From Dehalococcoidia bacterium (lineage in GTDB: Bacteria; Chloroflexota; Dehalococcoidia; Dehalococcoidales; UBA1222), in NCBI GenBank assembly GCA_003597995.1, contig QZJY01000005.1, positions 1 through 34,954 of the forward strand: 34,954 bases of DNA, in the 5' to 3' direction. The translations under genes and the position numbers were made by a program. Each line of letters begins with the position of its first letter. The first letter of the stretch is position 1. Below, piece by piece: positions 10,743-11,660 of this stretch. Below the pieces are notes generated by a model, which was given only the letters and a program-made list of their open reading frames with translations, searched no databases and was not told where the DNA came from.

Positions 10743-10814
10743 GGGCTCGTAGCTCAGGGGCAGAGCGGTCGGCTCATAACCGATTGGTCGCAGGTTCGAA
10801 ACCTGCCGAGCCCA
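10743..10814 (+). tRNA. tRNA with CAT anticodon (elongator Met, or Ile2)
   Basis: Acceptor stem GGGCTCG/CGAGCCC, anticodon stem GTCGG/CCGAT with loop CTCATAA (anticodon CAT), T arm GCAGG-TTCGAAA-CCTGC, discriminator A10814. Position 1:72 is G:C and the anticodon stem lacks the three G:C pairs of initiators, so it is not the initiator. Elongator Met and lysidine-modified Ile2 cannot be separated by eye. A degenerate copy of its 3' half lies at 11623-11660. Confidence 0.93.
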
Positions 10815-10901
10815 CTTTTTGAAAATTTCGTGGCTATCTCCGACACACCATTAGTCCTAGACGTTAAGTCAAACCCGAACTGTTTACCAGATAAATGAGT
10901 T

Positions 10902-11207
10902 CTAATCTGCTAGCCGTTTACCGGGCATGTCGTAAGATGCTCTTTTCCTCCAAAGCCGACTTCCTCTTTCCCAAACGACATTGTCTCCTGTAAGTAATCT
11001 GAACTCTCGAAGAACATCTTTGCTTATTGCCAGATTGCCATTCTGATTATCATAAACGTATCTATCGTCAAATTTCTCCTTGATTTGCCAGACAACTGTC
11101 TCCTGATAGAGATAATTTACTCTATTCAGTTCTTGAAGCATAAATATTGCGACATTCTTGGGTTGCCATGGTTTTTGCCCAACATTTAGAGTTTGTTTTT
11201 GATTCAT
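10902..11207 (-). CDS. Small uncharacterised protein (possibly DUF6953-like)
   Basis: A 101-aa soluble protein of unknown function. The segment LYQETVVWQIKEKF followed by NGNLAISKDVLREF, and the C-terminal VVWERGSRLWRKR, resemble a widespread small family that I recall as DUF6953; that name is from memory and needs checking. The fold may be a small winged helix. ATG 11207 has AGGGAG upstream. It lies 25 nt downstream of the gene at 11233-11490 on the same strand, probably one transcript, inside an AT-rich segment between tRNA-Met and a tRNA-Met remnant. Codon use is visibly more AT-rich than in the core operons, which fits acquired DNA. Confidence 0.72.
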   Translation of the reverse strand: MNQKQTLNVGQKPWQPKNVAIFMLQELNRVNYLYQETVVWQIKEKFDDRYVYDNQNGNLAISKDVLREFRLLTGDNVVWERGSRLWRKRASYDMPGKRLAD

Positions 11208-11232
11208 GTCTCCCTACTCTCGCAGACCTGTA

Positions 11233-11490
11233 TCAGCGTGCCTTCGAGGACACGTAATAAGTAGTTCCCCTCAGGAGTTTAGATTTTATCAATCCTTTGC
11301 CGAGCAACCTGTTGAGTTGTGCTTGGAGGGCCAATATTCGGATTAGGTCATATAGTAAATCAGGTTTTGTTAGGGCTGGTAATAACTCAGGAAGTGAATA
11401 TGCTTGATACGGACGCTCTTCCAGTTTTGCCAATAATTCTTTGTCACCTGCTTCCAAGGTTTCACTATATTCACGAAATGAAATTGGCAC
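11233..11490 (-). CDS. Small predicted winged-helix DNA-binding protein
   Basis: An 85-aa protein without a recognised family name. Its second half (ALQAQLNRLLGKGLIKSKL, then RGTTYYV) has the pattern of a winged-helix recognition helix plus wing, as in small transcription factors. It starts with GTG at 11490, with GGAGG 6 nt upstream. A TATAAT box with a perfect AGGCTT-C-AAGCCT palindrome just upstream precedes it, suggesting autoregulation. With the 101-aa gene downstream it forms a two-gene unit whose layout resembles toxin-antitoxin pairs, although neither protein matches a toxin I know. Confidence 0.65.
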   Translation of the reverse strand: MPISFREYSETLEAGDKELLAKLEERPYQAYSLPELLPALTKPDLLYDLIRILALQAQLNRLLGKGLIKSKLLRGTTYYVSSKAR

Positions 11491-11529
11491 AATTTACCTC
11501 CATTCTTCCCATATTTTGATCGTTTCTTA

Positions 11530-11552
11530 ATTATACTACAGGCTTCAAGCCT
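11530..11552 (-). promoter_or_regulatory. Promoter -10 box with adjoining operator-like palindrome
   Basis: On the minus strand TATAAT (11535-11530) lies about 40 nt upstream of the 85-aa gene. Directly upstream, in the normal -35/-10 spacer, is the 13-bp perfect palindrome AGGCTT-C-AAGCCT (11540-11552). A binding site there would block polymerase. No good -35 box is visible. Confidence 0.5.
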
Positions 11553-11622
11553 CAAGAGGTGGGCATCTGGTGTAGTTACTAAGCTGACATAATCAGAGCG
11601 GAAACACGACACAGCGATTGTG

Positions 11623-11660
11623 TCATAACTTGTTAGGCACAGGTTCGAAATCTAGTGAGC
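11623..11660 (+). repeat. Degenerate tRNA-Met 3'-half (attachment-site remnant)
   Basis: TCATAAC (11623-11629), 10 nt, CAGGTTCGAAA (11640-11650), 6 nt, GAGC (11657-11660). The tRNA at 10743-10814 has exactly the same three blocks with the same spacings, beginning at 10774, 10791 and 10808. Stems are broken, so it is not a functional tRNA. It reads in the same direction as the tRNA, as a second attachment site after integration would. Confidence 0.7.

Follow-up and report, generated by a model that had tools for sequence, protein, structure and literature searches.

Described relatives of this kind of locus

The tRNA-gene islands collected in Islander (PMC4383910) are bordered on one side by an intact tRNA gene and on the other by a displaced 3' fragment of matching orientation, and share with the locus described below an anticodon-loop sub-location and foreign cargo. 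Islands of Dehalococcoides likewise integrate at structural-RNA genes, whose 3' fragments are found repeated. The sites reported are tRNA-Ala, tRNA-Val, tRNA-Lys, and ssrA (PMC2764846, PMC3146451), and tRNA-Met is not named in the text of PMC2764846. A dif site was predicted earlier in Dehalococcoides (PMC3025954). A review from 2021 describes integrases that disrupt their own gene as exclusively archaeal (PMC8371274); among bacteria, phage Mx8 has an int whose 3' end is changed by integration (PMC6070905).

The locus studied here lies in a stretch of 34,954 nucleotides of a Dehalococcoidia genome (the window; its genome is G000, and other genomes and loci are given G and L numbers). It is an integrase-less, decayed member of this known kind of element, at a busy insertion spot beside dif. 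Its tRNA border, displaced 3' fragment, foreign cargo, and empty site in relatives are features of tRNA-gene islands, but an integrase gene inside the element is missing, the fragment is in an advanced state of decay, and beyond the fragment comes a second insert; a locus like this would not be listed in Islander. We file it as a remnant or passenger of the tRNA-gene island kind, and not as an intact island.

A worn copy of part of tRNA-Met

Genes at the locus are arranged in the order ferredoxin-like gene, tRNA-Pro, LigD-type phosphoesterase, tRNA-Gly, tRNA-Met, the interval 10816-12720, a 23-mer, hflX, aminotransferase, dapF, and miaA. The frame made up of tRNA-Gly, tRNA-Met, the 23-mer, and hflX is conserved across other genera and families. 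The putative target gene, tRNA-Met (CAT), is intact at 10743-10815 on the plus strand, and is recognised by both ARAGORN and Rfam. A decayed, attR-like copy of its 3' part, unique in the assembly, is found at 11610-11660 in the same orientation. The copy aligns with 10761-10811 over 51 nucleotides without gaps and with 36 identities, and it shares 37 of 51 nucleotides with the tRNA-Met of the nearest relative (G001).

The original prediction drew on the pattern TCATAAC-N10-CAGGTTCGAAA-N6-GAGC, noticed in tRNA-Met and again at 11623-11660 with identical spacing. Both occurrences are confirmed, including an unchanged 7-nucleotide anticodon-loop word TCATAAC in the copy (11623-11629), and alignment of the two tRNA segments shows that the match reaches further left. 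In the whole 1.80-Mb assembly, CAGGTTCGAAAN6GAGC occurs exactly at two sites only, which are tRNA-Met and the copy. When the intervening 850 bp are shuffled, the local score of the copy is equalled or beaten in 1 of 1000 cases. Among 0.86 million strand-positions of the window and related loci, the copy is the top ungapped match outside tRNA genes and clean tRNA 3' ends; everything that matches better is a tRNA-Met gene or a clean 3' end of one, and a tRNA-Trp (34/51) ranks directly below the copy.

The shuffles, the unique exact motif, and this rank as best non-tRNA match confirm the observation of the copy. About one shuffle in 1000 does reach the score, and the pattern was first picked out of a long window, so that resemblance by chance has to be weighed. 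Nevertheless, such a coincidence is extremely improbable: no better non-tRNA match exists among the strand-positions compared, and the copy falls in the one interval where it is predicted, with the orientation and sub-location seen in relatives. Rfam reports no tRNA or other RNA above noise in 10820-11720, which is expected because the copy is half a gene.

The same alignment bears on a different origin, which the original prediction itself had named as grounds for rejecting integration: the copy may be the rest of a second tRNA-Met gene that arose by tandem duplication and decayed after other DNA came between the two. The match extends 13 nucleotides to the left of the anticodon loop, another exact word, CAGAGCGG, from the tRNA 5' half is present ~20 nucleotides upstream, and similarity to the 5' half is borderline (p ~0.05). 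The copy, at ~71% identity, also lacks a sharp 5' break. However, the 5' half is unrecognisable in register, no relative has a tandem tRNA-Met pair here, and another family carries clean copies of the 3' half only at the equivalent position. Such a duplication is unlikely, and is the weaker rival of integration.

tRNA-Met as an integration site in related bacteria

We detected tRNA-Met 3' halves without a 5' half in four other genomes (G023:C28:681, G519:C63:37381, G511:C72:35934, and G487:C99:1806), each beginning at the anticodon loop. The half copy of G023 resides 565 bp before dif, by hflX, which is the position of the copy in the window. A tyrosine integrase (Pfam PF00589) directly follows tRNA-Met in G010 and G471, and the same integrase gene is found in decayed form after tRNA-Met in G040 and G476. 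Given the half copies in four genomes and the integrases behind tRNA-Met, this gene is a real integration site in these bacteria, and elements of relatives, some of them with an integrase, use the same tRNA and the same break point. Their tyrosine integrases set these elements apart from the ssrA islands of Dehalococcoides, which use a serine recombinase.

Empty and occupied sites beside dif

On its right, the variable interval ends at a stable border, a dif-like Xer site at 12721-12743 (plus strand), the 23-mer ACATAATATATATTGTGCGAACC, which adjoins tRNA-Met in many families. Read on the other strand, its arms resemble those of E. coli dif. With up to three mismatches allowed, no genome has more than one copy of the site, and it is single in the genome of the window. 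G016, G052, and G106 are single-contig genomes, and in them the site falls 40-46% of the way along the sequence, where the terminus is expected if the records begin at the origin.

Counted from the end of tRNA-Met, this site is 53 bp away in G045, 65 bp in G017, 86 bp in G011, and 102 bp in G013, which represent four families, and 257 bp in G004 (same family as the window) and G057. Longer intervals occur in G012 (1,167 bp), G001 (same genus as the window; 1,393 bp), G028 (1,464 bp), G034 (1,610 bp), the window itself (1,906 bp), G036 (2,109 bp), G003 (2,446 bp), and both G016 and G052 (~2,755 bp), and at additional loci the interval measures between 249 bp and 7.5 kb. The sites with 53-102 bp in four families, and that with 257 bp in G004, are empty or nearly empty. 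The insert of G001 includes a DAHP-synthase-like gene, by reading of the sequence, and that of G003 consists of other DNA. Since both distances and contents differ between relatives, the content of the interval turns over while its borders stay. Related genomes had been proposed as a check on the original prediction, and they provide both the empty sites and the different inserts at tRNA-Met that were to be looked for.

Other parts of this region also vary. The gap between tRNA-Gly and tRNA-Met is 11 bp in the window versus 0.5 to 3.4 kb in G003, G004, and G005, with inserts at L034 3558-6950, L032 1576-2039, and L033 7399-8105. To the right of dif, the DNA is variable as well, and in G004 the stretch between dif and hflX (L033 8461-9877) contains a HicA/HicB-like toxin-antitoxin pair, as judged from its sequence. 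Relative to tRNA-Met, the dif-like site is inverted in G034, G016, G052, and G106 (L141, L142, L143, and L216) compared with the window, which points to a local inversion between the two. Within 12682-12780, the dif-like site is flanked by outward copies of its own XerD-type half-site: on the left TTATGTTAA, ~39 bp away, and on the right TTAACATAA, ~28 bp away. XerD-type hexamers are found at similar distances on the right in 23, and on the left in 17, of the 43 genomes having a dif-like site.

The 0.8-kb segment and its cargo

The DNA between tRNA-Met and the displaced 3' copy (segment A, 10816-11609) has no counterpart in relatives. Its GC content is 41%, compared with 57% in the left flank and 56% in the right flank, and is 13-16 points lower than that of its surroundings. 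AT-rich DNA with two small genes had been predicted between the tRNA copies, and two minus-strand ORFs are indeed present. The first (10902-11207) encodes a 101-amino-acid DUF6953 protein (Pfam PF22266, E 1.1e-24; PHROG 10782, E 1e-26). The second (11233-11490) is an 85-amino-acid ORF that has no Pfam, PHROG, or NCBIfam match and no match in 60 relatives, viral contigs, or plasmids. DUF6953 proteins are likewise missing in these 60 relatives and, among 400 genomes sampled across the phylum, in the 399 others, and no relatives of the protein were detected among GTDB contigs, phage records, and viral contigs. Presence of the two genes in all relatives would have spoken against integration; both are missing from these 60. 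An integrase is also missing from the interval between tRNA-Met and the copy, as had been claimed, and at E<=1e-20 neither the window's genome nor its family yields one of the G010 type.

Homologues of the DUF6953 protein that are 33-58% identical reside on plasmids of Proteobacteria and Streptomyces. The closest (58%) is on Klebsiella plasmid NZ_CP132684.1 (71108-79350; L272), amid filamentous-phage genes that include Zot, a GspD-like gene, and the II/X replication protein. Filamentous phages frequently integrate at dif through Xer.

The tRNA-like stretch could also have been imported within foreign DNA, for example as a carried tRNA or attP piece, through a process like homologous or Xer recombination beside dif. 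The location of DUF6953 by filamentous-phage genes in the closest plasmid match is consistent with this route, as is the variability to either side of dif. Other elements are known to integrate at dif. However, integration by Xer would leave two copies of dif, and there is a single one. An element integrated at dif (IMEX) would be expected to have dif on both sides of the insert, and here one site is found at <=3 mismatches. Moreover, the orientation and spacing of the tRNA-like stretch match tRNA integration. We regard its import in this way as very unlikely.

A second insert beyond the copy

Segment B (11661-12720) is a second inserted stretch with a GC content of 51%. It is not located between tRNA-Met and dif in relatives. 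It carries degV (11665-12507, minus strand; 280 amino acids; Pfam DegV), which is relocated or foreign with respect to the window's family. Orthologues of this gene (55-60% identity) are sited elsewhere in other families, usually adjoining a degV paralogue. Within the window's own family there are degV paralogues only, at ~41% identity or lower. In every relative examined degV is missing at the tRNA-Met/dif place, and therefore the whole interval from tRNA-Met to dif, 10816-12720, is inserted. This result departs from the original prediction, in which the copy was the border of all foreign DNA: degV, beyond the copy, also belongs to the inserted DNA, which makes the copy an internal seam dividing segment A from segment B.

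Proposed origin of the scar

Segment A probably integrated into tRNA-Met at the anticodon loop, with displacement and subsequent decay of the old 3' half. Its entry would have been a site-specific recombination with the crossover at the anticodon loop, in which the tRNA gene received a new 3' half from the incoming DNA and its old one was shifted ~0.8 kb downstream. There, free of selection, the displaced half may have worn to ~71% identity, and the copy in the window would then be an att end. The integrase of segment A could have been deleted, or this DNA could have travelled as a passenger, with the enzyme supplied in trans. Segment B, with degV, may already have been present between tRNA-Met and dif, or may have arrived separately.

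Over 57 nucleotides, the copy and the tRNA-Met of G001 differ at 18 positions, and 10 of these differences are transitions, which we count in favour of integration. We count against it that the copy is down to 71-73% identity with no sharp 5' break, that a weak left extension (8/13) runs across the expected break point, and that segment A has no integrase left. Also, the left arm of the copy has no significant similarity to the clean attR copies of G023 and G487. Neighbouring coding DNA is 73-77% identical between G000 and G001, so neutral DNA has had time for this decay since the two diverged, and the insertion can be younger than their divergence. Integration into the tRNA 3' end, as originally predicted, is thus mostly supported, and the case for it now includes the empty sites, other inserts, half copies, and integrases at the same tRNA.

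Two further candidate signs were considered and rejected. An encoded CCA is missing from tRNA-Met in G000 and present in G001, G003, and G004, but is uninformative as a sign of insertion, since many tRNA-Met genes of other families, including those at empty sites, also lack it. The DNA that immediately follows tRNA-Met resembles integrase N-termini (CACTTTTGAA), but too weakly to count, because T-rich ends are common.

An integrase family with a possible attP inside int

The integrases found behind tRNA-Met form part of a family. Of the 18 closest members examined, 17 are encoded downstream of a tRNA in the same orientation, with 63-119 bp between the tRNA and the start of the match. The tRNAs ahead of these 17 integrases are those for Val (7), Met (4), Ala (3), Ile (2), and Gly (1), and in most members the int reading frame continues out of the tRNA gene. 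Loci of this family include L228 474-1632 (minus strand) and L233 1354-2821 (plus strand), with half copies at L146 681-723 and L195 1806-1832 (minus strand).

Directly before the half copies of G023 and G487 there is a purine-rich stretch followed by an in-frame ATG, and the in-frame products are MNRNT-HNRLVVGS and MNHNT-HNRLVVGS, respectively. The presence of an ATG in the same frame just before the half copies suggests, as a lead, that attP may lie within the first codons of int, such that integration would remove the start codon. In no genome were both ends of one element seen, and for the tRNA-Ala (G106) and tRNA-Val (G097) members, in single-contig genomes, no displaced ends were found within ~80 kb. 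An attP inside int is also a property of the archaeal 'suicidal' SSV-type integrases (PMC8371274) and of the Mx8 int (PMC6070905), but the outcome would be distinct. The SSV-type int is split in two and the Mx8 int receives a new 3' end, whereas int in relatives of the window would lose its start codon and ~4 further codons at the 5' end. Perhaps tRNA-Met by dif is an order-wide spot of such tyrosine integrases and segment A an integrase-less passenger moved in trans, although we consider this combination doubtful.

Implications

At the tRNA-Met/dif junction, borders are kept across an order while the content between them turns over, and empty sites in relatives offer a way to check a decayed tRNA 3' end. 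What the window holds is an ordinary island scar, and the integrase family behind this spot is the more consequential lead. If integration does cut int at its start codon, a layout that has been called exclusively archaeal would also be present in these bacteria.
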